64,000 nucleotides of DNA from Cladocopium goreaui (lineage: Eukaryota; Sar; Dinophyceae; Suessiales; Symbiodiniaceae): assembly GCA_947184155.2 (NCBI GenBank), contig CAMXCT020002668.1:1221214-1285213 (forward strand), written 5' to 3'. A program made the translations under genes and the position numbers. Position 1 is the first letter of the stretch. Every line of letters starts with the position of its first letter. The notes under the pieces are model-generated. The model was given only the letters and a program-made list of their open reading frames with translations, was not told the origin of the DNA and searched no databases. This document shows positions 3,101 to 56,362 of this stretch, piece after piece.

Positions 3101-6100
3101 CTCAAGGCATGGCAAACCTACTGTGTATTTGTATGGAGGGATTTTGAAATAATATAACATAAATTAAAACAATATAATAGCGTTTTCGGACATCAATGCA
3201 AATGATCATTGTTGTTTTTCGAACCCCCCCAAGAAAAATATAGGCAGTGTTCACAACTGCGGTTGGCTGATGATGAGGGAATTACCAGCCAGTTTTTCGG
3301 GACGACTTGGCCACGTAGATTTACTTGGCCCTACCACAAGGCTGGTGCGTTTCTTCACCCATTTGTTCAACGTTTTGGGATACAATGTCACCATTTTCAT
3401 CTACGATCATATCAACAATATTTTTCATGCAAGGTGGTGTCCCCCCCAGTTGTGTTTGTTGGTTTATAAACCATAGTAACTACAATATATATATATATAT
3501 TGTATAATTTATGTAGTGTGGGTAAAACAAAAAGACACAATCCCCCAAATCATCATAACTTGGTGGTAAAATCCATTCTAAATGGGTGGTTTACTATTTT
3601 TTACTCACATTATATGTATAGATAGCTATATATAATTATTCATACATATAATAATGATGATAATAATAGTTAATGATAATAGCAATAATAATAATGAATA
3701 ATGATAGAACCCAAAACAATATATATATATATATACACATCTACAGTACCATAAACCCTAGTCAACTTTGCTAAGTGTGGGTACCATATTGTAAGAGTAT
3801 ATTGTATCAATACAACTGTCACATCCCTCGGTGCCCTCCACGGTTTTTATGTGTTGGTTCATAAATCCAAAGTCACTGATTAAGCAACACACAGCTAATC
3901 TACTTATAGTAGATATTATTATCCAATTACGAGTCTGCTCCAATACTAATGATAGTCAACCTACTGTTAGCCTGGATAATATGTTTTGACACTGTTTATT
4001 ACACTAATAAATATCATAAATGATGTGATTTGCCATAAACCTGGTTCTTGGAGTAATCAAACAAACTATATAACTATTATCATTAGTAGATATGATAACA
4101 TATATATATATATATTCATACATATTCTCCAAATACAAGTGTTATCCAACACTACTCATGCAGTTAACACCTGTTTTTTCCTAGATATTTTCATAGTCCA
4201 CCTGGACATGTTTTGCATTTCCACCGTCAGTTGCGAGGTAGTGCCCCAGTAACTCAGTAACTGTACATATATCTATCATGTAAAGCACAACCTTATTGGA
4301 GTTGTGTAGTCTCCAACTTAGCTCTCCCCCCAACAAAAGCTCTAAATCCCATGAAATCACACTGTTTCGTGCTGTTTTAAGTTCCCATCTTCCTATGGTT
4401 TCACGTGGTTTTTCTAGGGTTTTCCCATGTTTTTTCTCATGTTTTCTATGGTTGTTCAGGGTTTTTCTAGGGTTTTATATTGTTTTTCTATGGTTTCTAA
4501 GTTTTTTTCTAGCGTTTTCTATTGTTTTTTTAAGGGTTTTCTAGGGGAACCCCACCTTTTTTTGGGAGGTTTCACCAATTTTCCCCGGCGTCGAGGCCTG
4601 GAGAAGAACCTGTCGCAGGTGTCGCAGGTCCTGGTGAGCCACGCAGAAACGGCCTTCGCCGCGGCGCGGCGCGGCAGCCAACTCGTGGCGGAGGCACAGT
4701 TTTTGTGGGGATGCTATGGGAATATGATATGATATATATATATATATAATTATATATACCCCCTGGTTATTTAACATAGCCATGGAAAATCACCATTTTT
4801 TAAAGGTAAACCATCTATATACATTTATATGTATATATGGGTAGATCATCCCCAAATGACCTTATTTCAGGTTAGTGAAATATTATAATTTACCCAGATG
4901 TATATATATATATACATATATATATATATTGATTACCAACAATAGAAATAGAAATGTAGTCATTTTTTTTGCATACATGAGTTACATCAGTATTTTGCAC
5001 CTGTATGCATGCATAGATCCTCAGCGATATATCTGGGGAAATTGTAACGACCTCACTGCTTTCCCTCACTGGACATCATGGTTAGGAAGGGGAATCATCC
5101 CCAAATAGCTTTATTTCAGGTTAGTGAAATATGATCATTTACCCAGATATATGATAGCCAATATTAGTATGTTGAAGGATTTAATGGAGTTAATGGGATA
5201 TACTGGGGTTTAATGGGATTTAATGGGATGTAATGGGATTTAAAACGATTTAATGGGATTTAAGGGGATTTAATGGGATTTAATGAGATTTAATGGGATT
5301 TAATGGGATTTAATGGGATTTATTGAGATTTAATGGGATTGAATTGGATTTAATGAGATTTAATGGGGTTTAATGGGATATTTTGGATATATAATAGATA
5401 TACCCTCTGGTAATTCAACATAGCTATTGAACATGGCCATGGAAATAGTTGATTTTGCCATGAAGAATGCTGATGTTCCATAGTTATGTTAGTTTACCAG
5501 AGGGTATATCTCTATCTATACATATATATATATATTATCTATTATGTTATATATGTATATGTATCGATCTATCATATCTAATTATTATGTATAAAACTGT
5601 ATATATGTATGTGTGTGTGGATACTAAATATGATGTGGATATATGTATTCTTAATTCTTAATATTGTTGAACTTGAATATACATTATATATTATGTAAGA
5701 ATACAGTATATGTAAGACTATATGTATGCGCAGATAAATTTTAACAAAACGTTTTTTTCCAAAGGATATGGGTGTTTGAATATGTTTGAACGGGGCTTAT
5801 TTAGGGTTATTTAGTTGATGAGTTGATGCTTGGTGACGAAGTAGTGTTATCCCAGCTGGTTGAGGCTATGAACCAACCATAACCAAGTGGTATTTCACGG
5901 GACGGGTTAGTCTAGACGTATTTGTTCTTGATACCTCTAGGATGATAATCGTTGGGTATAGACTGGGTACTTGTTGGGTATAGGTCAAGATGAAACCACG
6001 TAACGGAACATGAGATATAGATGAATAGATGAACCAAGATGGATGATCTTTGCGAGGATTTTTCATGGCGGCCCATCGAGGTCGATGATTTACCTTGAAA

Positions 6101-9100
6101 TTGTGATTTTCAATGACCAGAAATATCAAATTACCAGAGGGTAAATCACAGATACTACTTGAATTTTACCATCAGGTTTTTCAATTTTACCGAACTTTCA
6201 AATTACCAGAGGGTCGATACTGAAGCCGATGTTCCGTTTGTCTGTCAATTGTGCAATCACCAGTTGGATCTTTGGAAAAAAAAGGAGCTGATGCTGGGAT
6301 GACCTATTCAATTCTGAAAGGTACTGCACACGATGTTTTAGAGCAATTCTTGGATCTTGTCAAAATTTGCCAAGTAGTTCGGACATTATAAACCCTCATA
6401 AGTGGTACGGTATTAATTACCCCATATAGATTCTACAACTTTCAAATTCTGGCAACATCTAAGTATAGCACAACAAAAACTCATGGCAGCTTCTGCGAGT
6501 TCAGCGTTAGGCTCTACGGAAACACATGGAACTGCTGGAAGAGCAGCTTGGCTCTACGGGGTCCCTTTCAAGGTCTCCATAGAAATCGCAACCCCAAGTC
6601 GCAGTTGAAAACTAGCACTTTGCCAATCCAGTTCTTTGAGGCTATCCATACAACTGTAACTGGTGGCCCTCTAGTACCGGCCATTTGTATTCGTTTGTCA
6701 CGTGTATACACGTTGGTGTTGTTTGACATTGTTATTTAATGTTATGTAATGTTTTTATTGTTCTTATGTTGGAAGAGTCCCGGAAAGCAGGGCCTGCAAC
6801 TTACTTACTTATGACGTGCGCAGCTGGCAAGACAACATAATACCACTTTCATGTGCTGGTACGATGCTCTCTTCTCAATTTTCAGGAACCAAAAAGCACC
6901 AATTCATTTTACGATGTTCAGGATACATAATGTAAAAAAGGAACTTTCATGTTCATATTATTCTTATGATTTTGTCTCAGAAATGGTTCAGTTTCAACTT
7001 GCGAATATACCCTATTGATCCAAACACTGTCTGAGAAGGTACTCAATCCCCTGCCCTAAATCATACCCCAAATAAAATACTTCCTACAATGTGGCCCCCC
7101 CGAGTTATAAGTTGGTTTATAAGCCCCAGTAACTATAGTTATAAGTACCATAAACCATAGTTATTGGAGTTATAAACAAACTTAGCTATGTTGGGGGCCT
7201 CACATTGTAGGGATATATTTAAAACAGAAGCCTTTGCTTCACCACAGAATGCCCGAAGTGTTCCACGAGATTGAGCGCTCAGTGACTCAGGCAGACCTTT
7301 CTCGTAGCTCGAGCACTTGCTGAACACGTCACAGATGTGGCCACAAGCGGGGTCCTTTGGCAATTTGTTTTGTGTGATCCCCAAGTTATGGATGGTTTCT
7401 TTCATGGAAAATCATATCAAATATGGATGATAAATGGGGTATCCCTATAACTTAGGAAACATCCATCTTCTCATGAAATGTGGGTTTCTCCAAAAGTGGG
7501 GAAAAATATCAAAAACCACATTTATGTATGGATAATTATGGATACATAAGAAAACCTTGTAGACATGATATACTGATATAGCCTTTTTCAACATGACAAT
7601 TTTCAAGGAAGCCCTGGATTCGATGTGGCACAATTCAAATTTTTGAGGCATCCAACAAAAATTGAACCCCACACAGCTTAACATATTTAAATCCCCTATG
7701 GATCCAGCCGTAGCTTCTTAGGAAGTATGACTGGGGTATGATGACTAGGGGGTGTTTTGTACCTTCTCAGACAGTGGCCATGGATCCATAGGGAATATAT
7801 TTCAAGTGACCTATGCCATCCTATGCCGCCCTTTCTCGCACCACTAGTGGTTGACCCGTATAGAGCACAGTTCCGTTGCTAAGGACGTGGTGGCTTCTGC
7901 GTTGGCGCAGCACTTGCTGTGTCCGATCAACGAGACCGAGCAAGAAGTGGTTTTTTGCCCGTGCAGAAAGCCCTGTGCACTGGGGATATACAATGGGGAT
8001 GCGGGTAGTAGGAATAGGTTGACTAGCCATTGATGGGATGCAAAACTCATCATTTATAGGTGTTTTAACCGAAAAGATATGAGGATATGCTGATGAATGA
8101 AGATTGGTTGATGATTATGATTTTCGGGGGTGATACTACCCTGCATATATTTTCTGAAGCAACCAATGTAGTGGGTTCAGACAGTTTTGAACAGTGCTGA
8201 ATTGGATTTCTTCATCGTTGGGGTAAATGTAGTCAAGTGAGTCGAGAGACCTTTTTTTCAACAATACCCTCTGGTTATTTAACATAGCCATGTAAAATGG
8301 TCCATTTACAGATGATTTTCCCATGAAAACCTCCATTTATCAGGGATTTTCCATGGCTATGTTAAATGACCAGATGGTAAAAGAAGCCCATTCTGGTGGG
8401 TATGTGGAGCCTCGTATGTTTGGCCTGCAATGCGTGGTTGAATCTGTACATCAGTTCTAGTTTGTTGCGGCATAGGATCCCTTCCATGATACAATATTTG
8501 ATATCCCCAAATGCAAACATGGATTTAGTCTTGGATCCATATACAGTATTTTGAGGGCCCAATTTGAGGGAATTGAATATTCAGCAGATGGGATCATATC
8601 CACACTATCATTATAATTATATATATAATTATATATATATATGATTATATATGTACAGCGCCCGCACCTTTCTCTACCTTCTGCCGAACATCCCCTACAA
8701 TCAACTAATTTTATGTATTTGGATCAAACACCCCATTTTGGGCTGTTAAACCTTTACATGAACCCAATTTTAGAGACTAAACAAAACAACTACATTCCTT
8801 TATTGCTGGCCGAATCTTTGTTGGTCAAATCCTCCATGATATCGGGCTGGGATCAACTCAAGGCTACAGCCCTGGCGCAACACATGTTGGCAGAGGGGGA
8901 GTGCAGCTTGGCTGAATCGAAACGGGAAACACGACGAGCTAAAGATTGAAAATTTGCTACAGCTTGTCATGAGAATCTTCAACAAAACTGGAATCAGAAA
9001 CTTGCATTGGGAAGTCTTGGCCTTTCAAACAACACATTATTTGCACGCGCAGCCGTCCCAGGTGATGGTGTCCTTCCACCGGGCAGAACACCTTCGTCCT

Positions 9101-12100
9101 GTGCCCTGGCGGGGACCAGTTGGGATGAGGTCAGTGAAATGGTGGGGGACTATGATGGTATTTATATATGAAAATATATCGGGGCTATCAGGGGGACAGT
9201 GTAGCTTTGGTCATCCACAGAAATATATATATATATAATTATATATAATTATATATATATGATTATATATATATAATTGAACATCATCATATCCCTATGG
9301 ATATCTATGGATCCAGCCGTAGCTTCTAAACGGAAGTATGACTGGGGTATGATGATTTAGGGGGTGTCCCAGCCGTACCTTCTCAGTGGCCATGGATCCA
9401 TAGGGCTGGTGATGGTGGAATTCACAGGGAATCGATGTGTCTCGTCGGTGAAATCATCATTGGGTGTGTCCCCTGGTAGACATGGGTTAAAACAACCCCC
9501 AAGAAACAGCGAAACAAAAAAACAACACGTTTGAACCAATCAATAGCTTCTATCACTTTAACAGACTTACAGTAGAGGTTTCCTAAGTCATTGGGGGTTC
9601 ATCCAAGCCATGAATGACTACTTTAGTTTTCCCAACAAAACCATGGTGACTAAGGGGATACTTCCATTTTAGAACACCCCTCTAATGGCTCGCGCCTTCT
9701 CTGGTATTGGAAGCGGAAACTCTGCTCCTTCCAGGTAGCCGCAGTTCTCGTTCTCGGGACATCCATAGCACCGGAGATTCCAGTGCGCAAGACTCTTGCG
9801 AAGCTAGAGCAATGGCCAGCCGCTTATTGTTCCTTGCTGCAGCCTTGATGAACAGAAGATACCCAACCTGGTTATGTTGATTTAAAGCCATCAAAACCGA
9901 AACCCATGGGTTAAATGGGTGATGACTAATGGTGGTTGAATGGAGATCTAATGGGATTTACCCAACCTGGTTATTTTCCTAACAGTTCGCCATGGTTTTG
10001 CCATGGCCCATTTATCGAAATAGATGATAAACACCGAACTTAATAGCATGGGTGGATCTTTCCATGGCGAACTGTGAAATAACCAGATGGTATATGGGTT
10101 CAGTTTAAGAAAGCTGTTCCGAATTAAGCAAGGTTTGTTTCCGAAGGATTGACGGTTAGCAATTACAACATTGGGGGTTCACAGTCACAAACATGGGAGT
10201 CGACCACCAAAAACTATGGGATTCACTTGGGTGGACACTTAAAATAAATTAATTAAACTAGTATGTTGACTTTTTGTTTTGCACCTTTTGTTGCCTCGCA
10301 TGTTACAGATTCATCAGTGTGAAATGCCATTTGTTTCAAAGATTTGCCACTGCCAAGAGAAGTCGAAAATTGTGATCTTCTATCATAGTTATTTAATCCA
10401 GCTCTGCCCATTCCGAAAAATTGTTTCAACTTCTGTTTTTTTGATCAGACATTGAGATCCAAAGTCTTATGGTGTCAGATGCTTTCAACAGTCTTACTCG
10501 CAGGATACTGACCTTGCCCAAAGGAACTGCAGAGGTTCACTTTTGTTTCACCAGCCCATTGTCCCCATTATCCTTCGACCCCAGCTGTCAACTCCTCAAC
10601 ACTAACTGCTGGTTTTCTGTGTGTCCTTTTTTGCACACAGATTTTTGAGAAGAACGATTGTTCGAGAAGAATGCGCAAAGTTGTGTTTAAACATGCAACC
10701 CTAGCCATTCTTCTCAAAAATCCTTCTCAAGAATCCTTCTCCTCACTTTTTTTGGTGAAAAACTGTTCTGCAATTTCCACCAGAGAAATTTCTGATGAGA
10801 ACGATTGCTCTCGTGAGAACGATTGCGTCTCGTGAGACCGATCTTTGATTGAAATGTGCGAGAGAACGATGCAATGTCACTTCACAGGGGGGAGCTTGAT
10901 CATTGTCATTTTTTTGGGGCCAAACATGTGCTCAAACATGGCCCATGAGAATGGTGAGTGACTTAACATGCACTTTCCCAGTGAGAATGTGTAATCACAG
11001 CTTAGAAGTTATGTTGAATTACCAGAGGGCAATGTCTAGACCCTAAGAACAAAAACAATTCTTTGAGGCAAATCAAAACCACATGTGGTCAGATTAGGGC
11101 TGGTGTATGATTGGATTTACAACATTAGGCCACACAATGGTGGCATGTCTTATGGGTACTGCCATGACCGGTATGGCATTGTATGACACCGGAGGGATCC
11201 GGAGGGTTTGGTCCGATTGAATATCCCCATTATATCCCACTATACACAATCTATATACCCACTACTGTATCTATCCACTATATTATATATTATATATATA
11301 TATTAGTATGTTATTGTATATCTATATATAACTATTATATATATATTGTATATTATATATATATTATATATTATATATATATTATATATATATATTATAT
11401 ATATATAATATATATATATATATATTATATATTATAATATATATATATATTGTACTATTATCTATAGTATATGTATATATATATATATTATATTAAAGGT
11501 TTTATTATTCCATTACATATCATTAAAATGACTCACATCAACTGCTGGGCCTGCCATTTTGATCAGCCTGAGGTTCTTTCACGTGCAGGACACCGGGTTA
11601 ACCCATAGTGAGATAACTCCTCTGTTTAACCATATGGTTATCACCCATATAATATGGTTAATATTATGGTGATCCCATATATGATTAATATCTCATATGT
11701 GATAGAGCAGCATGGTCATTTCACAAGAGCAACTAATGATATTAGGGTGGTTTAAGTGAAATGGGGCTTTTTTCCCTGGCCTAACATCAAAAAGACCTCT
11801 AACAGAATAGCTTCATAAACCGCTGTATGAAATGATATGATTTTTATTTGTTGCTAGGATTTTATCAAAACCGACATGTAGCTTTAATCGAGCTACTGGA
11901 TCATGTAATTTGAGGCCATTTGACGTCAATTTCCAGAAATGAAAGAGACTGGCCCTCAAAGATCAAGGGTACCAAGGGTAGCAAGCATTTTAACCCCATA
12001 GAATTGAAGTGAAACCTATGGATTAAGGGTCCTTTAAAGGATAGAACCGTACATTAGAATCAACCTAGCGGGCATTCAAAATGCTCTGTGTATGGAGTAT

Positions 12101-15100
12101 GTTTGAACAGCAACTACTATCGACACAAAAAAATAACTCATTCACGCAAATGTACACCACATGGAGCATTTTATTTTGAGAATGTCTTAATCCTGAAAGC
12201 AACCAAAAACATGGGAGCATGTTGGGTGTTTTGATTTCTTTCAGCATTGAGAGCTCATTCATGGGTAAGATTGCAACATAGATTAACATGTTGTTTTACA
12301 TTTAATATATTGCTTAATATCTTAATATGTTTACATTTGCTGTTGACATATTAGGACATACTAATAAGATCTAATAAGATATTTGAATAATTATTCCATA
12401 TTCATATATGTTTAAAAACAAAAGCGTTACAACAATATAACAATTATAATATGTTATAGTATGTTGCAAATTTACAATTATAATATAGTGACGGACAATC
12501 ACTTAGAACGTATTTTTTTTTTCCATTTTTTTTTTCCGTACTTAGAACGTAGCAAAATTTCATCACTTAGAACGTAGGGAAAATTCATCACTTAGAACGT
12601 CAAAATATCACTTAGGCCCATTTATCACTTAGAACGTAAACCAACACTTAGAACGTGCTAAGTGATTGTCCGCACTTGTAAACAATTGTCAGCATATGTA
12701 TGCACACGTATATATATATATACACATAGCTTCTTGAAGTGCGTCACCAATACATGTCTATTTGGTCCCTGAGTGGCTTCGCTGAGTGCGGCAACATGAT
12801 TTCACAAGCCTTTCCACTATCATCAGTGACCTAGACACGTTCTAAGTGTTAAATCCCCGGTACGTTCTAAGTGATGAATCTTGATATTTGGACGTTCTAA
12901 GTGTATGGTTTTCGACGTTCTAAGTGCAAGGCTTAGAACGTAAAAAAAGCAGTAATATTCAGATTTTTTTTTCCAAAATACGTTCTAAGTGATTGTCCGT
13001 CACTATATATTATAATGTCTCGTGCCACTGTCTTCTTATTGTTCCATGTTTTTTTTCTCTCCAGGACGCACGACCTGCCTCCGGAGGCTCCGGAGGTCGG
13101 GTCGAAGGAGAGATGTTTTTTTAAGGACACCCGAAATAGATAGAAAACCATAGGAAAACCATAGGAAATACATATGTTATACATATGTTATGTGTTTTTT
13201 CCGGATTTTTTTCCAGGATGGGTAACTTTTCAGGATGGGTGACTATACATCCTGATCCATCCTGGGGTTTTCCATCCTGGAAACACGACTTTTCCCTGTT
13301 GCTGGAAGGATTACTACTATATAGGCTTGACTCCTGATCATTGGGGGATAAAGAATGGTATATAGAAAGAACAATTTCCTGTAGATGTTCCCTGAGAATC
13401 AATGTGTTGAACAAATTTTATATTCTGCGGCCCTCCCGCAATGTAAGTCTGGTGGTGACTGCTGGTGGGTTCAGGAATAACCACCAAAAAAACACAGATT
13501 TGTGTTTTCTACAACTCATTTAACAATTGGGTCAGGAACAATTGAAGAGACAAAAACTTGGTTAAGGGACAATTATTACATAGGGATCATTTGTCAGCGC
13601 CTGTTTACACTTCTTCTTGCCGCAGCATCCGATATCCCCTGCAGGTAGCAGACCAAGCAGACCCACGAGTGGTTCAAAGAGTTGTCGGGACGTGCACAGT
13701 GCGGGCGGGTCCAGTGCAGGCGATAGCCAGGAAGCACAAGCGTTGGCGAGTCGTTTGTTGCCACTCGTCGCCAAGGAATTGTGGGATCATGGAGTTTCTA
13801 GCACATTGAGATGATGTGAAGTAATGATTCTGGTGTTTTTTTTTACGCTGATATTTTGCAGTTATATTTTATACCCTCTGGTAAACTAACATAACTATGG
13901 AAAATCACAATTGCTAGTGGGTAAATCAACTATAAATGGCCATTTTCAATAGCTTTTTGTATGTTTACCAGAGGGTACATCCTGGATCTTCAAACGCCCA
14001 TCTATGTTTTGGTTGCTGCGGTTGTTGCACACTTTTGTTCGGAGTCGACCACAAAAAGTGGTAGTTTACCAAAACGAATGTTTTTGATTGTTTTTGAAAG
14101 AACTGGCATTGACATACATTAATTTGGGAATTTTGTGATTTTGTGGCCCAGAATGCCTTGATCCAGCAAAAATAGCTCTGGACCCCAGTGTGGGTTTCAA
14201 CAATTCCCTGATAGATTGTTCCATTGGATTTGGCTTGCGCAGGTTTGTTTCCAAGAGAGGTGACGACAGAAAACACCTAAAAAGTTTGTGCAAATCCTGA
14301 ATTTAAGCAAGAATCCGCGACTAATTTTGTGTTCAAAACGCCTACAACAACTCTCAAAACGCTAGCAAACCCATCAAACGGCTACAAACCAGGAAAAGTT
14401 GGTCAAATATGTTTTTTTGTTCTAATCCTGCCGTGGTTGTGCTGGTGGTCAATGACTCCTTCTGATAATTTGGATTGGCACTTTAGACATTGGACCATAG
14501 CTATGGTCAAAGCTAGGCGCCCTACCATGTTTCCAAGTCCCAAAGAAAAACGAAAAGACATGTACTGACATATCATAGGCCTCATCGCCATTGCACCTGC
14601 ATAGCTGGCTGAACCCACACGACCATTTTTTCTGGAAAAAACCAAATGGACTGTATATATTTTTTGGAAACGCCTAGTTTTAGCAGTACAATTCACATCG
14701 TCCAGATTTTTTTGGGTAGAACGAAGATCCAGGATGGGGTTAAAGCCCAGATATGAACCTCTAGGTCTTGTTAGTCATGAAATGATCAGTTGCTGGATGG
14801 TAGCTAGCGGAACTCTGAAGCCTGCCAGAGCAAGAAGTGTTTCATCTTTTATTCACTAATTTGTTCTATCATATCAAGATAGCATGTAGGTTACGTATGT
14901 GCATAGAAAAAAATGTTTGGACTACACCAGGACCATTTTGCACTAGACGGCATTGGGACCGGAAAAAAAAACGCTTCGATTCCAATCAGCTGAATTCTGA
15001 TCCCATTTGCTCAGGTTTCCTACAAAGTATTTGTTTTAGATAAACAGCCACATGAGGGTAGGAAATTGGTCATTTCACCCCTTCAATTTGCCCGTTATGT

Positions 15101-18100
15101 TATCCCATGCAGCCTGGACAACCCATGAACACCCTGTCACCAGGGGGTTGGGAGCATCCACTGGTATTTGGGGTGATCGACAACGCCGATCTAGTCGCGT
15201 TGTCGAGGTTCTTCCATGCCATGGAGCAGCGCTCAGTAGCTGAGCAAAGCAGTCAGAGTCGGCAGCGAATCGGACCGTGTTGATATCGTAAATTCCCCAT
15301 ATATTTGTTGCGTAAAGAACAAATTGCCGCTTCCGAAAGGTATGTTGAATCCTTGAAATTCGCACCAAAAACAGCCTCTAGACTTACAGATTGTAGTTCA
15401 CCTTCACACAGAGCTTTCAGTCGAAGCCCTTTACCAGTTATAGGACGATCATTCCTAAATGGGCTTATATTTTTGTTATAATTGACTTTATAAGTAGCAT
15501 TTTGGGCCATAACTGGTTGGTGGTTTGGAACATTTTTTATTTTCCCCAATAGTTGGGATGATGATCCAATCTGACTTTCAGATTTTTCAGGGGGGTTGAA
15601 ACCACCAATTAGATAACTGTAGTCCCCCTAAAATCCCTGCAATCCACTGCGCTCCATCGAGGCAACGCCTTCCGAAGGCCCCCAGGGCCCCCAGCCTCCG
15701 CCCGAGCGCCCGCGTGGTGCCAGCGGTGCGGAGTTTCTGTTGGTCTCGCGGGCCTTGGCGGAGCATGTGCTAAGTGCCTTGGTGATGACGTGGAGTTCAC
15801 GCAGATTTCAATGGATCCGAAATTGATGTAAAAACTACAGTAATTATATATTTATGAATTACATCTTATTACAGGTATAATTGGGTTTAAAGTTATAGTC
15901 ATAGTTATACATGAAAGTTATTGTTTATACATAATTTATACATGAATATTCCATGATTCATGAACGTTCTGACTTGGACTCTGACAGTTTTTCAGAACAG
16001 GCAAACCATGATGGTTGAAGCATAAGGAAGTGGAAGCTCCATATGGAGGTTTCCTACAAGGTGCCCCTCTTGTTCGTTTCCTAAGCTGATCATTTATAAC
16101 TCCAATCATGTTTGGGATTGTTTGGGTTTATGGTAGATTTATCATGATTTATCTATAGTTACTAGATTTGTAATGATTTATGAACCAAGAAACATAACTA
16201 GGGGGCACCAAATCATCCAAGCAATGGATGACCATGACTTAGTATTGTTTTACAACCATGGTGACTTGTGGATCCACCAACCCTTGTTGATGGGGTAACA
16301 ATCCAGAACGGGTCCCCATGGGGGGTGGAGACATGCGTATTGTAGAAGCGCTTTTTTTTTCTTTGCAGATTGCAAAATCAGACCTTTCACAACTCCATAA
16401 CAAAAAGATACAAAAAGGGGGTACACTAATCCTTTTATCTTATAATATAAAACGTTCCTCCCGACCCTCCTAAATAGTAAAATGTAAAAACCTATAGGTG
16501 TATTTTTTTAATCATTAGAATAAGGTATTTAGTAATTAGGGTTCGAAGCTGTCCCCTAATATTACCAGGTAATTTTAAAACCTACAAAAACTCCTAATAA
16601 TATGTTCGATTTCAAAATCGATCAAATCCCTTTTAAAATCCGATTAAATAGTGCCAACAATTGGATTTCGAAGCTTTTCCCCAAGATTAAACTTAAAACC
16701 TTATTCGATAAAAACAAGATGTTCGATTTCAAAGTCGGTCAAATTCATTTTCAAAATCTCATGAACATATAGCCAAAAATTGGATTTCGAAGCTCTCCCC
16801 TCATACCAAGTTTAAAACCTTAAGCATCAATTTACTAAAGTGTTGATTTGAAAAGACGGACCACAATAAAAACAACATCCCGGAGTTATATAACTAATTT
16901 TTGTGATTAGGGGGGTGGAACCTCCAATTTCAAATTGGGCCTTGATGTTAAAATTCTTGTTTGAATGGGATCGATCAAAAATCAAATTGACAAATCCATA
17001 ATTTCCCAAAACGAACAATCTGAGGTAGCTTTTATGATTTTATGATGTGGCAGTGTGTCAAAACCTTGTACCCCTTTTGTTCACATCAAAATAGCTGGGA
17101 TTTATGGATGTTCATCCCCCTAAAAATGGTATTCATAGGTATTGATCCATACCCATGTGGGAAGGTTTTTGTAATAAGAAGGGATTGGCTGGTTTGTTGG
17201 AATTGTTGGAATTGCAGCAGCAGGGAGTGATGATTGGAGTCTAGTGCTGTCAGTGTACACCATGTCATCCTGGGACTACTTGGTGATCTTGGGAAGCCGG
17301 TGACACAACGGAGCCATGGGATCCCACATGATAAGTACCTGGACATACCTGGACAGTCCATTTCTCTACACACATCCATAAACAAACATTAAAAAAACAC
17401 ATGTGTTTTACCGATAGTTTTAGTACTTTTATAATGATTCATAATGATTCATATTTGGTTTGGCTACTCTGAGTGTCTTGTTACATACCAAAATCTGAAA
17501 TAAACTTGGAATGGGTTTAGACATATTAAGAACCCAAATCTACAGGGAAAAAAGGGGTACCCGATGGACTGAACTGGTATGGTTTGCATTTCTTCATGGG
17601 AGAAATGGACACTATATAAGTAACTGGTTGGTGGTTTGGAACATAAATTTTATTTTTCCATTCAGTTGGGAATTTCATCATCCCAACTGACTTTCACTCC
17701 ATCATTTTGCAGAGGGGTAGGTAGGTATAGGGTATACCACCAACCAGCAAAATATAACCATAAAATGTACTTTGGTATATCAGGTACCATAAAAAACATA
17801 ACTATAAATGGTACATGAGATATATCCAGGTTTCATGTTTTTCCTAAAGTGAATCCCATGGACATTTTCATGGACATCCCGGCAGATTGTCTGTGAATCC
17901 TCATGTTTTCCAAGATCCCCATGGCTTTTTTTCGCCATCGCATATCGAGTAACGCTTCAAACTAAGAATGACTAGCTATGATTGGACAGAAGAGAGAGTC
18001 AGTTTACATAAATCATGATAAATCATATTTATATATATACACATGTATATAGCTTGAAATGGTTAACCAACAAAAACTAGCATATCATTATCATCAATCA

Positions 18101-39100: not shown

Positions 39101-40644
39101 AAACAACCGCAACTTCCGGCTTTTCGTGGCCGGCTCAGAGCTAGAAATCCATGAAATCCATGAAAACCCTGGGACCGCAACTGTGTAACTCTTCCATGAA
39201 GGGCCTGGAAAGTCTCCAAAAACGACCAAAAACAAGATCAATTCCAACTCAGCAAAATATGTGTCTCTAGTTTATTTTTGGGCAGAATTCCATGCCAAAC
39301 AATAGCAGTTTCACATAGCATTTTCACATCATAAACAAACAGCCCAACAGCCCAGAGCCTGTCCCGTCGACCTTTGCGAAAGTCGTGTATCGTCGCCATG
39401 GCCCAAATGATGCAAAACAACGACCTGGGTGCACTCCTTCAGTGACTTGGACATTGCGAATGGCTCAAGCGGAAACATTTTCCGGTTGAGGTTGTTTCAA
39501 ATATGATGAACATACAGAATGACAAATGGTGATTTGACTATCAAAAATTATGAACATGTTGATTTGACCATCAAACATAGGTGGACATGTTAGATTCAAC
39601 ACTCAAGAATGGTGAACAATTTAAATTTAACCATGAAACATGGGGATTTTAACATATAATAATTAATTCTGAACTGGTTGTTGGTGGGTTCATTTGGCTT
39701 TTTTTTTTAATATAATGTTCAACCGCATAGACATGGGATGATGACCCCCGATAAGTAGCATAGTTTCCGAGAGGGATGGCTTTCATCAAAAAGAAGGAAA
39801 CTTGTTGGTGGTTTGGAGCATTTTTTTTTTTTCAATATATTGTTTTTTTTCCCAACTGACTAATATGTTTCAGAGGGGTTGAAACCACCAACGAGGAAAT
39901 GTAAGGGAACCGTGTGATTTGTCGTGAGATGTCGTAAATGATCATGTGGCCGCTCATTGTTCTATGAAGGGAAAAACAAACAACATCCGATGAAGGTGAT
40001 CAAGAGCCTACATGCGGAATTCAAAAGAAACATGGGGGATTCAACTAAAGAAAAAATGTGAAATTTACAGATTGAACTGGGCAAAATGTGACCCTGATGA
40101 ATTAAACAAAATCCCTTGCCGCAAAGATGTTAAATTGATTTGAATTGATCCCCTCCCCAAATGAACATCACCAAACCATGGGTAAGATTGGGGGTGTCTT
40201 CATGTGGGTTTCGCAGGGCTGAATACACCAACCAGATATGCCAAAAATGACATGCCGAGAATGTGCCGCCCCCAGGTCCCCCAAGCTATGTTCGTTGGTT
40301 CATGGACCCCAATAAGTATGGATAATTATGGATATATGTACCATTATTGACTATTATTAAAGCAATTGAGCTATTACTTAGCCTTTATCAAACCTCCAAT
40401 CCAACATTATTGAACATTATTAAACCAATTTAGTTATTAGTTAGCCTTTATCAAACCTCCAATCAATTATTATTGAACTAAACTTTATCCATGATGATTC
40501 TTTGCGAATTCTCTCATCTTTGATGGCTAACTATAACCTCATCCCTGGCAGTGCTGGCAGCTGGAAGGGTTTCGTTGAGGCCTTGGGCTTCTCGAGTCTT
40601 GGAGATTTGCTTCAAGCCGCTTGGTGAAGATAAGCGCTTGTAAC

Positions 40645-40677
<33 letters not shown>

Positions 40678-40749
40678 AAATCATCATTTTTAATGGGAAA
40701 ACTCACTATAAATGGCCATTTTCAATAGCTATGTTAAATTACCAGAGTG

Positions 40750-40781
<32 letters not shown>

Positions 40782-43700: not shown

Positions 43701-46700
43701 GCTATTTGTTTAATCCTTATTAAACATTCTGAAAAACAATCTTTTTTTACTTCACCATCCATGGGTGAAATCTTCAAGTTGTTTTTCTTAAGGGACGTTT
43801 TTTTGGTCATGTTCAATCACCATTTGAGGATGGTTAAATCGCCATCTTTGATGCTTACATTTGGTTAAATCATGTTAAATCTCCCAATCCACATCATTTT
43901 CCCCCATCATGGATTTCCCTGTTTTTTTTTCTCGTGGTGAAATCCCAATTCTTGACACTTAAATCATCACTGCTTGGTGGTTTGGATGAGTTTTTATTTT
44001 CCCCAATAGCTGGGATGATGATCCAATCTGATTTTCATATTCTTCAGACGGATAGGTATACCACCAATTAGTAATTAACTATATAATTACGGGGAACATG
44101 ATTATGATCTTTTGTCTGGGATTTAGGGGGTACCCTATTTTCAGCCTATTTTCAGCTTATTATTACTATATTTGGGAGAAACACCATCCATTAGCCAGCT
44201 ATTTTAGGGTACCTATTCCCTATTTGACGCTTAAATCATGTTAAATCCTTTTTTCTGATGAACTCAGCATCCAGCTCCGAGGTTCACCCAGCAGGTGCCC
44301 CAGGAGGTGTTTCTGCGGCAGGTGCTTCTGGCCTTGGCCAATTGGGTGAGCCGCTTGGATGACAATTTCTGGTTGGTGGTTTGGAACATGGTTTTTATTT
44401 TCCATAATATATTGGATGTCATCCACCAACCATTGACTTTCATATTTTTCAAGATGGTTAAAACCACCAACTAGATTCGGGGAATCCATGACAAACTGCT
44501 GATTGAAGCGGGAAAACATGGGAAAACTTGGAATTGAATCCATGAAAAAATAGCGATCTAAGCCATCAGACATATGGATAATGGAGGGTAATGAGGAATC
44601 CATCAAAAAATTGGGGATTGAATTCATCTATATGCAGGCTTTTGTCCCACTGCTCCTGTGATGTTTATTTTTTACTGCAACTTTCTGATTGAATCATCGT
44701 GAATCCATGAACAAAGTTATGTGATTTGACCCATCAGAAATGTGGATAACAAGAGAGATTTAAGACATGAACAGTGAAAACATGTGAAAACTAAGTCCCC
44801 ATCGATGGGGACTTAAGCCATCATAAAATGATATTTTTTTCACATCCAGAATTGTTAAACAAAATGTGGGTTTTATATGGTCTTATCAATCATCTCAAAA
44901 AGGGGTTTTGAGATGATATAAGCATCAAAATTGGGTTTGCAATGTTTTCACCATCAAAATCATGTTGGAACATACATACTCAATAAGGTTTTGTTTGCAT
45001 TTTTTAGTTCCACTACATGGTTCATCGCTGTTTATAGGGTATCCCAGGCCCAGAAATTTCGATCATGTGCCCTTTGAAATGGCCGGTGTATACTGCCCAG
45101 CTCACCAGTGTTCCATTCTTCATTGGTTAAATATCTTTAAACCGCCGTGTTTGATGGTTAAATCTTACATGGATACTTTAATCCTTTAGTCTTTTGGCAT
45201 CAATGGGATTATCTACTAACCAGCAAAAAACCTAGTTTTTTGCAGGGTATCTAAGATTGGCAATGGATATGTTTTTCACAATTATCTGGGTAAATTTGAT
45301 CACGACCTCACTGTTCTCCCGAACCCTGGAATCATGGTTTAGTAAGGGAAATCATGCCCAAAGAGCCTTAACTCAGATTGGTGAAATACTTAGATTTACC
45401 CAGAATTATGGATTGTTAAATACCAATCTTTGATGGGTGAATCACTCTTTTTGAGGGTTAAATCCTCATATGTTTCAATGGGACGGAAGCAGCGTGGGTA
45501 TGTCGCTGAGCCAGGTACTGCAGGCCTATCCTTGGACTCGCACGTTCCGTTGCTCGGTTGTTGGAAGACCATGTTTCTTCGAAAAAACAAAAATAACATG
45601 AGTAATTAACATGTTTTCTTCAGAATCCTCTACCATTGGTAGCTAACCAACCTGTTGTATATATATATATATTTTTTCCATTTTTTTCAGGGTTCCCTGA
45701 TGTTTTTTGCAGGAAATGATGATCACAGTTATGAACTCTTTGAGTCACAGAACTGGGTTGTTTTTTTTTGTGGGTACAAGAAAAACCAGCCATTGCAGTT
45801 ATGGCCCGAAATACCAGTTATAACATCTTATAACATCTTATACCCATTATAAGATGGGATTAACATCCTATAACATCCAGTTATAACATCCTATAACATC
45901 CATTGGGATTATAACATCTTATAAGCCCACTTATAGAATGTATAATCCCATACCCATATGCAACCCATGGTGCTGGAATATGAATCCCAACATGTGCCCT
46001 TGTCCAAAAAAAACACAAAAAGTTTTGTAGGTAAATATACCAGCACCATGGGACCATGGGTTTCATATGGGATAGAAATAACCAGCTATAACTAGTTATA
46101 CCCTCTGGTAAACATACAAAAAACTATGGAAAGATTCACCATTTTTAATGGGTAAATCCACTATTTCTATGACCATTTTCAATAGCTATGTTAGTTTACC
46201 AGAGGGTATGTCATCTATGTTAGTTTACTCCTCCTGAACCATTAAAACCTCCATTTATAGATGATTTTCCCATTAAAACCTCCATTTATGAGGGATTTTC
46301 CATGGCTATGTTAGTCATAACCAGAGGGTAACTGATAAATGGCCATAACTCTGGTTTTGTCAAAAACCCACTGATTTCCCGAAGTCCAGCGATTTCATGG
46401 CGAATCTTCTCGACCTTTTTTTGTGACACAACGGTGGAGACCGTGGTGTTGCCCGCGTAGATGATCTTGTTTAGTACTATTATTTTATGTTTATATACAT
46501 TATTTATCTATAGTACATAGACAATACACCAATATGATGCTTAATGATGTCGTTTATCTATATATATATACATGTTATCAATTTCTATGTACTATGTATT
46601 ACTATGTCATAGTTAGTTTATCTGATATATTCATCTATATTTTATCAAATGGATTCAAATTGTATATATACACCCCCTAAATCATCATACCCCAGTCATA

Positions 46701-49700
46701 CTTCCCAAGAAGGTACGGCTGGATCCATAGGCGTTATCAATTTTGATGTACTATGCCATAGTTATTTTATAGTTATTTTATCTAGACTTTATCTATAGTT
46801 CATCAATTTTAAAATTTTATCCATATATATATATACTATAAAGTTAGATATTGTTCCTTTACCTTATTGATATTTAAATATGTTTTTTATTTACTATTAA
46901 TATAGTTCCTTATTTTGTTCAGAGATGTTTCGTGAGTTCGTTACGCAGGTTCCAGGCCATGCCGGGGAACAACGCCAACCACAAGTTGGATGCTGGGACG
47001 AAGGGACGAATTGTCGCTACGCAGCTACCCCCGTTTCGCTTCGTCAACGGTTCGTTTCGGGTCTGTCAGCTACGCGTTGTGAAGTTTCCCAGTTAGGGAC
47101 TTGATGAAATGTGGGAAACACGTGGGGAATTCCTGAGTGTTTTGAGCTGTAAATGGAGGTTTTCATGGGAAAATGAGGGGAAACAAAAAATCAATAAATG
47201 GTATTAAATGGTGGATGTTCGATCAAGCCATGTATTTCATTGCCGACGGGTACGTCTGAAATATCTACTAGGTACTATAGCAACCACCAAAAAAGATGCA
47301 AAGTTGAGAATCCCACTGAAAGGGTAAACTACTGTTCTCTCTTTTTGGGGGTTGCTATATGATCTTTCATGGAATCCAACACCCAACAACACATAGCTCA
47401 CATAGCTTGAAACCCTGGTATTTGCAGCTCTCAATGCTGCACTGCGTGGAGTTCGAAATGTGTCGGTATTATCTTTGCTCTTAGACCCAGTGATGACTTT
47501 ATGATTTGTTTTTTGGTCTCAGAATCCAGTGCGCTCTGAGAGTGGCCACTGGAGCCGTCAGTGACGAATGGAATGTGCGAGTTGAAGGGTAATTGCCATC
47601 ACCCTGATTTTAAATTAATCACCTCCCATAAAACCATGGTTTACTAGGGGATGAAATCACATATTTGAGACCATGGGATGGGGGTGTTTAATATGAACGG
47701 GAGATGGGATTATCCATTAATATCCACTTATTATTATCAATATCCAAGTATAGTGTATTATATCATACTGCTGATTACTATATATATATATTTAGATACA
47801 TAGTAACCCATGAATATTCGGGAAGTGTGACTAGTTTTTGTGTGTCAATTTCAATGAGAGCTGAGACCCTACGATTTTCAACACTCAGGCTTGAAGGAAC
47901 ATGTCTTCACATCTACGGCTCAATACATGGTGCCAATGTGGTGCCAACCCTCTGGTAAACGTTTACATAGCTGTGAAACATCACCTTCTTTGATAGGTAA
48001 ATCCACTAGAAATGATTCCAATGGCCATGTTCAATAGCTATGTAACACATTAAAAAAGGGTTGGCACCATGAAATTTCACGAAAAAAACCCATGGAAATC
48101 CCATGAACAAACCTCCATGAAATCCAACGAATTCCAGCTTTGTTCAGCTGCCATTGGGACGATGAGACGATGTGGGGAGGCTGGGATGGTCTGTTTTTCA
48201 CAGACACGGCTGGCTGTCGCGGTTGATATTTTTAACATTCCAGGGTATCATTGGTATAATGGCTAATCTACTGGTTAATAATGGTTAATATAATGGTTAT
48301 ATAATGATGGTTAATATAATGGCTGGTTGGTGGTTTCAAACATGGCTTTCATGTTCCATCATATATGGGATGTCATCCACCAACCATTGACGAACTCATA
48401 TTTTTCAAGATGGTTGAAACCACCAGTGTTTGTGTTTATTCACCGTGTTTGCACCATTATAGTATTATTATACACTATTGTACACTATTGTACACTGTAC
48501 ATACACTGTACATACACTGTACATACAGTACATCCTTATTTGTGTGGGTCAAAGCTCGGCATGTTCATGGTTGTTGGTTATGTGTTATGTGTGTTAGTCT
48601 GAAAAGCGGGTATGCCATTATTTATCCATTGCTCACTCATCATTTATCCTGTCAAACTGGCCATGTATGTGGTCAAATCCCAATGTCTGATGGTTCAATC
48701 CCCATTGAAAACAGCATTTAACTGATGGTTTCCGGAACTGTTTCATCCCAATATCATACCTTCAATCCTATTTTTGTTGTTTTCCGGAAAATGGATCTGA
48801 TGGTTATTCATATAGGATTGTAGATCCATATCATGTTGTTTTCCCCATCTCATAACAATCCTACAATGTGAGGCCCCCAAGATAGCGTTCAGTTGGTGCC
48901 AATAACTCCAATAACTATGGTTTATGTAGTATTCATGGGGCTTATAGTCTAATAACTCTGGTTTATAGGTAATATATATATATATATTTATTATAATATC
49001 TATAGTTACTGGGGCTTTTGTTAACCAACAAACATCACTGGGGGGCCTCACATTGTATGATTTTTGGCAACCCCACAGATCCGATAAAAAACATCGTTGC
49101 GGATCCGAGGAGCAATTCCTTCAGAAAATTGAGGCGCTCCTGGGATCCTGGGAGCCACTGGGAGCTACGGCCCAGTTTCACGGTGGAATCAAAGATGGCT
49201 GGGTAAATTAATGGTTAATGTTGGTTAATGATGATTAATAGTGCTTATGAATGGTTAATGATGATTATTCTGGGTAACTTTTTTCACGACCGAAGCCTGT
49301 TCTCCCTCACTAGAATCATAGTTAGTAAGGGAAATGATCCCCAAGATAGCCTTAATTCAGGTTAGTGAAATATGATAATTTACACAGAAACATGGCTGGT
49401 AAATCCGGGAAGTCATTTGGCAAAAATGGGAACATCATCCATTTTCATGAAAAGAGTCATAGAGGTTTTTTCATAGGAAAATACGGGTTAAAATCATCAA
49501 ACAAAATTGTGGATTTTCCAGCCATCGACACAGCGATTGAACACGTCGCGAACTGGAACGACTCACCTTATTTTGATGGGTTCTTTTTGGACAATGCTGC
49601 ATAGCCTACATAGCTATGTTAAACTACTGGAGAGTGAGTTGGTTTACACTTCGATGTGCATCCCAGTTAGTAAGTGGTTTATAAGTTGTCAATAACCGCT

Positions 49701-52700
49701 ACATACCTGGGGAGTTTTGTTTATATATAAATATATAACTGGGTTGCACCATGATTATGAATTACAAACCACTTGCTAACTGGGATGCACCCCCTAGTAA
49801 CTCATATAGCAGGGGTTCATGGCACATTAAAAAGAAAAAACTGAAGTTACATGGATGTATACGATATACAAACATATACGAACCATTGTTTTATTGGGGG
49901 CCACCATTTACGTGATTTGAACAGCCCATTTTGAATCGTTGTTGCACATTTGTATGTCTTTGTATGTCTTTGTTGGCTATGTATCTATCAAGTTGCATGA
50001 GTTATATCATATTATATCTCCATGATATTTTTTTTCTATGGGATTGGAGAGTTCTTCCAGCCATCAAGCGTTGGAACATTCATGACCCACCTGGCCCTTT
50101 CAGGAGAGCTCCGGACAACGGACTGCGTCAGCGAGAGAGCTGAGTGCTGCTTGGATTCCATCTGATTCCTGCTCCCTTTTGTTGGAACAAATGACCATCT
50201 GGTTGGTGGTTTGGAACATGGTTTTTATTTTCCATAATATATGGATATATATATATATATAGATGGGATAATCCACCAACCATTGACTTTCATATTTTTC
50301 AGATGATTGGAAGGGTAGACATAATCTGATTATACAGTAAGTAGTATGGTTGGCCGGTGAATACGGATAGCCACCCCCATTTAACATGGGATCTTGCCTG
50401 CCAAATTGGCGACTTGACCCACAGACAGGCGCATCACTTGAGGAACTTAGGTGGGTGGATCAGGACTTTGGAAATCTTGAGTCTTGAGGTCACTTCGAAG
50501 ATTTACCGAACTTGAACATGGTGAGTGTCCAGTTGGCAAACTGGATAGTAACAATATGTCACTAATATGTAACTATAGTTTCACAATTAGTTTCACTATC
50601 AGCCACAATAGTACAAACTCTCCACTTAGTTTACCAGAGGGAAGCCCACTTATGTACTTGATAGTCACAATAATTATGTCACAATGACTTGGTGATCCCT
50701 TGGATGGATGCGACCTGATTTTCTCGGAAAGCCCCAGATATTCAGGCCGTTGGGAAAATCAGGAAACACAACCATGTTTAATACAGTAATTATAGAAGGA
50801 AACTAGGACATTATATGATTATTAGATGATCACTAGATGATGATTAGATGAATTCAACAATTTCTAAGATATGATTGATAATTCAAGTGATTTTGCATTT
50901 ATCGTTCGATCTCATGCCATCTAATCAGATTTCATGTTCTGCTTATCCAACTCTTGAGTGAGAAAACCACTGATGTATGGCCAGCCTTGAAAAATGAATC
51001 ACAAAAACACTGCAGGTTTTTCCGTCAAATTTCACTATAATGTAATTAAATATTGTTATCAGCCAGGTTTACTGTAAATGTTATTAATCACATTGATAAT
51101 GGATAATCAAATTTGCCAACATCAGAATGAGTGTTACCAGTCACAGGTATTTTGTGACTGCACCGAAAAGATTGGCATGGATATTTACCCTCTGGGAAAT
51201 TAACAGTTGGACCCTGATTTTATCACCAATTTATAGTGGAAACTAATCTTCCAACCCCGACAACTGCCAGGGTCTATGTTAATTTACTGGAGGCTAATTT
51301 TTGTCATGTTGAAACAGCTCAGGCAAATCAGGGGATCCCCAGGGTGATCCCCATGCCATAAATGGTTACCCAACAAGACCCTGGGATCTTCAAAGGGAAG
51401 ACCTGCGGGGAAACCAGCATGGCCGCCATGCCATCGAAACAACGTTACGGCCTGATTGAATTCTATGGTTTTGTTGACCCCTAATGCCATTCAGTGGTTG
51501 AATCCCCGTTCTTGATTGTTAAATCCGTATAAATCCGTAGCTGGTTCACCATTCTTCACCATTCGTATGTTATTCTTGTTGATTAAATTCCAATTTATCA
51601 TATGACTTCATACGTTTTTCCCGCAGCATTTTTAAGCGAAACTAAGCGAAACGAACAGGAGTTCATCTATCACATGGTGCTGCAGTTGTTGAACACGAGT
51701 GAGTTCGCCTGTGTGGCCAGTGTCTTTGGCTGAAGTTGGAGACTGGAAGAGCGATGCACGACGATTTCAAGGATTGAGGCGAATAATCGATGCACTGCAC
51801 AAAATATCATAATATAATATATATATACACATACCCTGAGTATCTTGCTACATGAGGCATCAACTTGTAATAAGTAATATTACACAATATTGATAATTGA
51901 TCATACTGCAATTTGCAGCTCATTCTTTCAAGGGTGCTTGGAACTACCAAACATTCACCCTCAAAAGTCCATTTGGGAAGGATCCCATCTGCAGGAAGAA
52001 TACGCGAACGATTATTGTTCGCTCAGACAAACAAGCTTCATGGTGTCCTGCAAAACGTTTTCAGTGGACATCGTTTTCGCTGCATCATACTTATCAGCCA
52101 TGAAAATTCCATGCTGGCTGGGTGAACAGTTATGAAAAGTTGGGGTGAGTATCAATGATACACTAACTGGTCTGGTTGATGGTTTCAAACATTGTTTTTT
52201 ATTTTCCATCATATATGGGATGTCATCCTTCCCATTTACGAACTCATATTTTTCAAGATGGTTATTGCACCACCAACCAGCTACCCTCTGGTAAACGTTT
52301 ACATAACGAACTGGAAAGATCCACCATTTTCTAGCTGGATAAACCCACTATTTCGACTGGGCCACGGCTTCAATAGCTATGTTAGTTTACCAGAGGGTAG
52401 TATATCACGATATATCTACCATAAACCCTGGTTAACCATGGTTAACCTACTTCAATAGCGACTTTTTTGGAACTGGGTTACCGCGACTTGTATCATAGGA
52501 TCCTAACCAAAGTCCTCCAGGTGCGCTGGCAGGGACCTTATCAGATGCCTATGCGAGTCGCTTGGCGGCAAGCCCGTGAAGTGCTGTGAAATTGATCCAA
52601 TGTTTGGCCAAGATATTAAACACACGTGTATATATATATAATTATATATATACATAGAACATGTTGATTATACAGTTGATATGTCTTACTCATATATGTC

Positions 52701-55700
52701 ATATATGTTACATATGGTATGTATATATATACATATTACATGTTATATATATGCTATATTAAGGCCTATGATTTATGACCGTTACGTCGTTACGGTGGCA
52801 TCCCATGGCTCCCATGGCTCAGAGCCATCGAGGCGACGTGACCATCGCGGGGCTCGCGTCATATCCTGCGCTGATGTTGGCGCAGCTGGTGAACATCTTA
52901 GAGCCTCGGCAGCGGCGGAGTCCTGTCGATGATAGGACTGGTTATTTCACCCATGGGTTATTGCCCTCTGGTAAACGTTAACCTGGTTAGTGGTTTCAAA
53001 CATTTTTTATTTTTCCATATTGGGAACAATCATCCCAACTGACTAATATTTTTCAGAGGGGTTGAAACCACCAACCAGTAACAGTTTGCGAACTGGAACA
53101 TGGTGATTTAGTTCGTGGATTTAGCCATTAAAAATGGTGATTTTCCATAGTTATGTCAGTTTACCGGAGGGTAATGGACATTATGGAAATAACCAGAGGG
53201 AATCAATGGTGAATCAATGGTGAATCAATGGTGAATCAATGGTGAATCAATGGTGAATCAATGGTGAATAGTGGTAAATAATGGGATATTAATGGTTAAT
53301 ACTCTGGTTGGTGTTTTGGAACATGAATTTTATTTTCCATAATATATAATATATGGGATGTCATCCTTTCCATTGACTTTCATATTTTTCAAGATTGTTA
53401 AAACCACCAACCAGTTATGGAAATAACCAGAGGGTTTCATGAATCATAGATAGTTATAACCAGAATCCAATGGTACAGTAATTATTATTAACATTGTAGG
53501 ATTTCATGGAAATTCATGGGATTTCATGGAAATTAGTTTTATTCGATGGACATGTACGGGATTTATTATGATTTAATGAGAAGGTTGCCATGATTTTGCC
53601 ATTTATTACCTCTCTGGTAGTTTAACAGTCTGCGACCTGGAAACCATGGCCCATAAAATGGCCACAAAACCAGTCTGGCCATACAAAAACGTTGGGTGAT
53701 TTTCCAGAGCTACGTAGAAAATTACCAGAGGGTACATAGATTTACTAGGTTGAACATAAATTAAGGTGAGTTCACCACAATCAAATGTGCATGTATATAG
53801 GTGTCCGGAAACTGGCTGGGTGACCTGGAAGATGAATAGATCCACCCTCGGACATATCAGCAGGGGGTGATCAGCAAACCACGGATACCCTATCCTGTTT
53901 GTCGGGGCTCCACAGGGTTCCATGTTTGTCGATGAAAGTGTACTGCTTTCCATTCCTATTGGGCCTATTGGCCTGTCATGTTGATGTGTACTGCAGATAG
54001 TCATGTTTTGTCATTCCTATTGTCCTATTGGCTATGAGTAGATTCGTTTTTCTTAGTAAAATAATACACCAACACTACATTAACAATGTTGGATGCATGA
54101 ACACAATAAACAGTCCTTTTTCTCACCTAATAAAATAGGTATTTTTCAACACATGCCTGTTGAGTATAGATAGAGCTGATTAATAATCAGATTATGCCTA
54201 TCTATGGGTTTTTTAATCTATCATTTCAGGTACCTCCAATCGGTTCCTGAGTCCTGGCCATGTTTCGATTGTGGGCCCAAGGAGGAGATGCGCGCCAAAG
54301 TCTTGCGAATCGCCCTCGAGTTGGCGCCCTACGTGCCTTGGCGCTGGCATGGCATGGTGATTTCGATTGCCACATGGCTAGCCCTGTTGGGTTCTTTTTG
54401 AATCCCAACGAACAGCTATTTTCTCAGCATTTCTCAACTATGTTTTCGGCGCAACTGGTGGTGTTGATTGTGTTATCTTCAATTTTCTAGCCACATAGAC
54501 ATGTCTTTTAGTACACTCATAGTACCAAGCAATTGATCCTGTTGGTGCAGCGGATGTCACAGTCTGTTGGGAAGGCTTTGGTGCGTGGACATAGCTAGAT
54601 AGATCGATAGATCGGTAGATAGATAGATAGATAAATAGATAGATGATTTCGGGTGCTTGGTTGTTGTTTTTTCTTTTCATCCAGAAGCTCGCCACGTGAA
54701 ATCTTCTCTGGCAATTTTTCAACTCCTCAGGCATTCCATGTGTCCATAGCGATAGACAGGATTTTCACTGCTGCTCTCCCGTTGGAAATGGGACCCCCAA
54801 ACTTGGGCATTTCCAAGTGCTGACAGCTGAAAAAGATTCTCACAATCTCCCCGCAGGGACAGCTTAGAAGTAGCAACTCTGCCGCATCAAATGCCGGAGA
54901 GGGGTTCGCCCGTTCGCCCTGAAATCATAAGATATGGGGGTTTCCTGAAATGGGGGTACCCAATATCTGGATGGCTTATAAGTTTATAAGGTAAAACCCT
55001 ACTCAAATTTGGATGATTTTTGGGAGTACCCCTATGACTTAGGAAACCTCCATATGGAAGTACAGATGGCCACGTCTTCTATCATTAATCTTATTGGTTG
55101 GCAAATCCACTGGGGAAACCTTTGGTGATGCCCGGCTCCAATTCGAAAAATGACACGTCACCTTGTAAACGTTTGGAATTTCAATGGATACAACATGTTG
55201 GTATCCAAAATACTGTAAACATTTCTCTAACCTGATTTTGGGAATTTCAATGTTTGACGTCATTTTGGTGTATCAGTTCTGTATCTTACCAGTCTCACAA
55301 TAGAGAATGTTCATTTATCTTCACCAAATTCTACAGCATGATGACCCAACAAAGATGGGCTGTGAACTTAAGTTCCACAACAGCTCTGAGTAAAATTTGG
55401 CACGTGCACTTATTGACTTTGATTGACTTTGATTATCCAAACTATTCACTATGATTAGCCAGTTTTATATAGTTTTATGGGGTTGCAATCCACTTATCAA
55501 CTAAGTGGGTCCCGCTGAACATGGTTTCATACTCCCAAATACAACCATTCGAATTGGCAACGTGATGATTCAGCAATGTATTTTGGATCATCCAGTCGTA
55601 CATCTTCCGGGTGGTGCCCTTTGATCAAAGTTGGATCCTCTAACAGCCATTGGATTTTTTAGGCATATCATACCCTCTGGTAATGACTAACATAACTATG

Positions 55701-55980: not shown

Positions 55981-56280
55981 GAAGAGTATGGGGATAACTA
56001 GATAGTACGGGGATTTTTTTTGGGATGTCTAATCATGTCTAATCTATGGATACAAAATGCATATGATGGGGGAATGGGAAAAAATAATGGGATACTAAAG
56101 GGATATTCCTGGAATATGCTGGAATAGTATCCGACAACGTCAGCCTTTTTTTTAATATATAGCAACCCCAAAAGGATAAAAATGTGTCTTTGTTGTTTTG
56201 TTGGTTTAACCAAAATTCAATGGAATGGTTGAGAGTTGGCTCGCCCACATCCATTTTGGCTGCAAAGGGTTATCCTGCAG

Positions 56281-56328
56281 CCTGACAAGTTGACCAAGAA
56301 ATTGGGAACTCTCAATGTCCAGGAATCA
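56281..56328 (+). CDS. Putative exon (KLTKKLGTLNVQES)
   Basis: Acceptor ttatcctgcag, donor gtacat. Reads PDKLTKKLGTLNVQES; the other two frames stop at once. The frame stays open into the downstream CAC/CAT repeat. It may belong to the exonuclease gene. Confidence 0.45.
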
Positions 56329-56362
56329 GTACATATCCAGGACAGGTTCATCTTGACTAGCA

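Follow-up and report, generated by a model that had tools for sequence, protein, structure and literature searches.

A local array of short ALA-helix units in Cladocopium goreaui, downstream of ankyrin-repeat exons and beside an EXD1-like exonuclease gene

Three described repeat families come closest to the array considered here. Ankyrin repeats carry a glycine after their second helix, for which the consensus is VVRLLLEHGAD; in the RNase-inhibitor type of leucine-rich repeat (LRR) an LxxLxL strand precedes, in constant register, a helix that reads GAxALAxAL; and the core of the octatricopeptide repeat is Trp-Ala-Leu-Ala. The array lies in a 64,000-nucleotide stretch of the dinoflagellate Cladocopium goreaui (C2668:1221214-1285213; GenBank contig CAMXCT020002668.1, in an assembly of 1.166 Gb and 6202 contigs), which was analysed at full length and is called the window below; 50 kb were fetched from each flank, where some stretches are N, and negative coordinates lie upstream of the window. 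The motif A-[LM]-A-x-[HR]-hydrophobic occurs here in nine plus strand islands between 7.3 and 20.4 kb (at 7304, 7890, 8863, 9735, 13626, 15743, 18144, 19605 and 20372), two of which are ASR variants.

Compared with these families, the locus shows partial likenesses only. It resembles ankyrin repeats (PF12796, PF00023) in being a helical repeat spread over many short exons, with true ankyrin exons just 5' on the same strand, but neither the Leu positions nor the loop Gly of ankyrin are present in the units, none of which is detected by the Pfam models. The A-x-A-L-A helix is shared with the RNase-inhibitor-type LRR, from which the units differ in having His or Arg in place of its small residue. 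Octatricopeptide and related alpha-solenoid repeats likewise have short ALA helices, sometimes behind PQD, whereas the units have no Trp and a different spacing before ALA. Most likely the nine islands are exons of a single gene with many introns. Each would code for a short amphipathic helix (consensus V/E-A-x-A-L-A-x-H/R-hydrophobic-hydrophobic), and the linkers between the helices would vary, some being rich in Ser, Gly, Pro or Asp; one exon would have been duplicated within the gene, which may continue 3' from an ankyrin-repeat gene whose exons sit roughly 4 to 13 kb before the start of the window. Helices on flexible linkers would most likely form a degenerate protein-binding scaffold, perhaps beside an ankyrin domain. 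We hold this reading as a whole with slightly less than even confidence.

Exons were predicted with codon weights and splice scores that are our own approximations, untrained on this genome and biased toward GC-rich islands. Predicted coding segments of at least 16 bits numbered 43 on the plus strand, compared to a mean of 10.2 in 20 local shuffles and to 28 on the minus strand. A splice-aware exon chain, built blind to the motif, scored 514.8 on the plus strand and 329.5 on the minus strand; three shuffles gave 175 to 211. A single low-complexity exon accounts for 60 of the plus strand points and another for 50 of those on the minus strand. The plus strand chain contains 53 predicted exons, of which 50 were kept once low-complexity and tandem-repeat exons had been dropped.

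A recurrent helix unit had been proposed for this DNA in a sequence-only reading, which assigned it to a dozen or more exons of a single protein spanning 4604..52888 and listed 13 islands. The recurrence is real, yet smaller and more local than first described, amounting to nine islands over 13 kb. The literal pattern of that proposal, [VL]xxALAxx[LV], occurs four times on the plus strand and never on the minus strand, with a plus strand shuffle mean of 0.17 and none of 100 shuffles reaching four. Since this pattern was chosen post hoc, we tested at once every gapped four-residue pattern within six residues across the 50 motif-blind exons. The top pattern was A-L-A-x-H, present in seven of them against a maximum of three in 100 shuffles; the corresponding maxima in control exon sets were three on the minus strand (50 exons), four upstream (47) and three downstream (56), masked parts having been removed from the flank sets beforehand.

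Refined, again post hoc, to A[LM]A.[HR] with a hydrophobic residue after it, the motif pattern matches nine times within 7.0-20.6 kb, always on the plus strand, and once in 207.6 kb of other unmasked sequence, on the minus strand right behind a stop (one match in the 50.4 kb of the rest of the window; none in 45.0 kb of unmasked upstream sequence, 47.3 kb downstream or 64.9 kb of another contig). With a leave-one-out profile, each of eight units (omitting 19605) took first rank against the remaining six-frame positions of 164 kb, scoring 13.2-25.1; this ranking is not independent because the profile units had been selected by the motif; the best minus strand background match scored 13.4. In the comparison of reading frames, for which we bounded the stretches ourselves, the ALA frame was the best of the three plus strand frames in nine of nine cases; among all six frames it was the best open one in seven of nine.

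The units are degenerate and occur one per island, as had been proposed. Unit 1 (ALAEHV, 7292..7351) has an ALA frame that is the best of three plus strand frames and not the best of six. Units 2 (ALAQHL, 7848..7949) and 3 (ALAQHM, 8803..8946), like units 6, 7 and 9, were each recovered by the motif-blind exons, the all-pattern test, the profile scan, the frame comparison and the refined pattern, and the local alignment score of 43 between units 2 and 3 was reached by none of 400 shuffles. Units 4 (AMASRL, 9735..9844) and 5 (ALASRL, 13645..13769) are copies 1 and 2 of the duplicated exon, with approximate 3' ends. Unit 6 (ALAEHV, 15678..15794) follows a Pro/Gly-rich linker, unit 7 (ALASHV, 18144..18226) follows AGDGSTD, unit 8 (ALAKHF) occupies 19605..19640, and unit 9 (ALARHI, 20330..20422) follows LPQD and is succeeded by an in-frame TGA, a possible C-terminus. 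All nine lie on the plus strand. The small or acidic linker said often to precede the helix is found, as a Ser/Gly/Asp-rich stretch, in some units only.

The islands at 9735 and 13626 share 62% identity over 37 aa (E 1.4e-9) and are two copies of one exon. In the ALA frame, their 36 differences over 89 aligned bases comprise 8 at first, 8 at second and 20 at third codon positions, and synonymous changes account for 13 of the 23 codons that differ; the excess at third positions is evidence of selection on the protein in the ALA frame for these two units.

No family could be named for the unit, as the sequence-only reading had anticipated. Pfam searches with single and joined exons gave no match to the units above chance, with one sub-threshold match to island 31815 (E 0.027). 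In the PDB, a profile built from eight units returned seven matches to mixed molecules (best E 0.31) and no family, and the joined array returned nothing up to E 10. Within the C. goreaui genome, the joined exons without units 9735 and 13626 gave 17 matches up to E 1, all on the contig of the window, while unit 13626 found itself, 9735 and one weak match on contig C1653 (E 2.1). The last was followed over 70 kb and dropped, the best 70 matches to the gene region resembling dispersed repeats and the refined motif being absent. Structure prediction by AlphaFold2 for the 13626 unit, with seven other units as alignment, gave a low-confidence linker followed by a single helix (residues 21-47 of 48); the predicted local distance difference test score averaged 75.0 and was about 92 over the last 18 residues. 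The mTERF, Pumilio, UIM, spectrin and AKAP helix families were considered and set aside.

Upstream of the window, in sequence that the sequence-only reading could not see, joined plus strand exons between -13.2 and -4.4 kb match the Pfam ankyrin models Ank_2 (30.9 bits, cutoff 27.3), Ank_4 (24.8 bits, cutoff 22.7) and Ank (21.2 bits, cutoff 21.1), in a join favoured by two choices, namely that an exon near -7.19 kb was read by eye in an ankyrin-like frame and that a predicted exon near -9.5 kb was omitted. An earlier ankyrin test of these exons, singly and in a shorter join, had found none. PDB matches of the same joined exons are to a designed ankyrin protein, with E 2.9e-5, and to FEM-1, with E 0.009. 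Weaker matches of the upstream ankyrin exons elsewhere in the genome, to other long open frames at E 0.056 and above, point the same way. A tentative last ankyrin repeat of this upstream series may lie at 1802..1886 on the plus strand, where a home-made ankyrin profile has the best of its matches outside its training set, at 8.2 bits, below its best match to reversed sequence (10.0), and where the Smith-Waterman score to an upstream ankyrin exon is 42.

The helix array can also be read in other ways. The units could be decayed ankyrin repeats, retaining the second helix and continuing the upstream series, as the recognised ankyrin exons on the same strand and the spacing V..(R).L.(E)H common to the units and the ankyrin second helix would suggest. 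Yet the motif has Ala at an ankyrin Leu position, and the residue after His, a position left free by the pattern, is Gly in none of the seven A-L-A-x-H exons, the other two units having Leu. The home-made ankyrin profile misses the units, and the window exons do not reach the Pfam ankyrin gathering score (the filters of hmmscan discard most weak matches). Against consensuses typed by hand, we also scored fourteen peptides, comprising the nine units and five listed islands excluded from the array: their combined z for ankyrin was -1.44, compared to +6.49 for seven peptides chosen as ankyrin-looking (five upstream, two in the window), and we consider decayed ankyrin repeats unlikely. The same fourteen peptides gave z 3.76 against the RNase-inhibitor-type consensus and 2.56 against that of the octatricopeptide repeat, both values being confounded as each consensus itself contains ALA. 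Linkers such as AGDSQ, which resemble IGDEG, would also fit degenerate LRRs, but no LxxLxL strand at a constant distance before the helix was seen by eye in the exon peptides and no Pfam LRR model matched, and this origin seems very improbable. The absence of an ankyrin signal from the array would fit a gene of its own with an unrelated helical domain; as no boundary was identified between -4 and 7 kb, where no dedicated test was made, we regard a separate gene as distinctly unlikely. It is possible, if on the doubtful side, that the A-x-A-L-A-x-H-hydrophobic unit is a repeat unrecognised by the libraries searched, arrayed in a protein that also contains ankyrin repeats and propagated in part by duplication of exons.

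Several observations weigh against the scaffold reading, some of them consistent with Ala-rich helix codons having recurred by chance in exons of high GC content. The motif was missed (z 0.3) by an expectation-maximisation search for eight sites in the 53 unedited exons. When two motif-bearing exons were added, a search of the same kind reached z near 6 at width 9 and z near 4 at width 12, from an exon set that is biased by the addition and was excluded from the evidence. All-against-all alignment of 77 exon peptides differs modestly from shuffles save for the duplicated pair, which alone stands far above them (score 98; next 43 and 42). Exon boundaries and phases differ among the units, unlike those of a classical exon-duplication array. 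Unit 1 was absent from the earlier list and has a weak exon score (-0.2), and at unit 4 the motif-blind exon finder took a different frame. Unit 8, at the very start of predicted exon 19605-19793, is the least secure because an in-frame TAG directly precedes it and serves as the splice acceptor in the exon model. The helix predicted for the 13626 unit favours the reading, but short Ala-rich peptides are readily predicted as helices. Chance is also favoured by the choice of the refined pattern after the data were seen and by a coding score that rewards GC-rich islands in several frames; the all-pattern test allows for pattern choice, however, and with a single match in 207.6 kb of other sequence and the codon constraint in the duplicated pair we think chance very unlikely. 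Returning to the helix array in one intron-rich gene, if it is real at the protein level it would constitute a repeat missed by the profile libraries searched and visible only through its recurrence across the exons of one gene.

The remaining islands of the sequence-only reading fall outside the array, and the idea that all 13 belong to one protein is not supported. A search with the 3' exons found a paralog on contig C2194 (L051). Apparently a retrocopy, it has a 516-aa frame without interruption and contains a 3'-5' exonuclease domain, DNA_pol_A_exo1 (PF01612; 51.1 bits, cutoff 23.6). Compared with the open frames of the 164 kb, L051 has 16 plus strand matches among the 42 listed that lie between 41.8 and 71 kb in L051 order, including its seven best; taken one by one several are weak (E up to 23), and it is their order that constitutes the evidence. 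Eleven of the 16 lie inside the window, where the exons of this putative EXD1-like gene span 41843..63967 on the plus strand, and the gene continues to about 71 kb outside it. Among the matches are 44262 (VPQEVFLRQVLLALANWVS) and 52772 (LASYPALMLAQLVNILE), corresponding to the listed islands 44268 and 52825, and collinearity with the uninterrupted paralog assigns both to a separate, apparently EXD1/Egalitarian-like gene. Island 52521, which sits between matched exons and reads GALAGTLSDAYAS where L051 has SALAVLSESSD (our own reading, not a scored match), is probably an exon of the same gene. A possible start exon (MAQ...) lies at 39356..39428 on the plus strand, where AMAQMMQNNDL is a weak match in order (E 14). 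Two exonuclease exons of the window match Egalitarian at E 1.2 only, and the domain score is that of the paralog, not of the spliced window gene.

Islands 4604 and 31815 lie upstream of the exonuclease gene. The former has a profile score of 11.9, below the best minus strand background match, and 31815, 44268, 52521 and 52825 are not among the 40 profile-scan positions listed; the helix unit was thus confirmed in none of these five islands. A reading of raw sequence can merge the exons of two adjacent genes, which an uninterrupted paralog can separate. Further downstream, at window coordinates 73060-74418 (L009-L010), an open frame contains tandem VVTWG repeats like those of RCC1, perhaps preceded by a ubiquitin-like stretch, both named by eye.

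The window also contains dispersed elements. One of about 100 bp, with inverted ends CTGGTTGGTGGTTT/AAACCACCAACCAG, was found in 16 places, 15 of them on the plus strand and some of them fragments, and 14 of the 16 were inspected; copies lie at 15513, 17624, 37375, 37862, 39801, 43970, 44364, 48318, 50198, 52171, 52983, 53303 and 59516, among others. In the copy at 44364 the GT of the left end is a predicted 5' splice site. The element resembles the introner elements of Symbiodinium, for which terminal inverted repeats are described in Symbiodinium microadriaticum (PMC9860276). A second dispersed element, with TACCCTCTGGTA ends, occurs in both orientations at 20740-20845 and 29 other places, in part as fragments, and the stretch at about 4727-4820 recurs often across the genome, where a first look gave 1327 candidates and 40 were scored. 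Arrays lie at 5177-5379, 36461-36691 and 33161-33382; two of them, in distant places, are related and of TTTAATGGGA type (10 and about 21 bp), and one is a 40-bp array.

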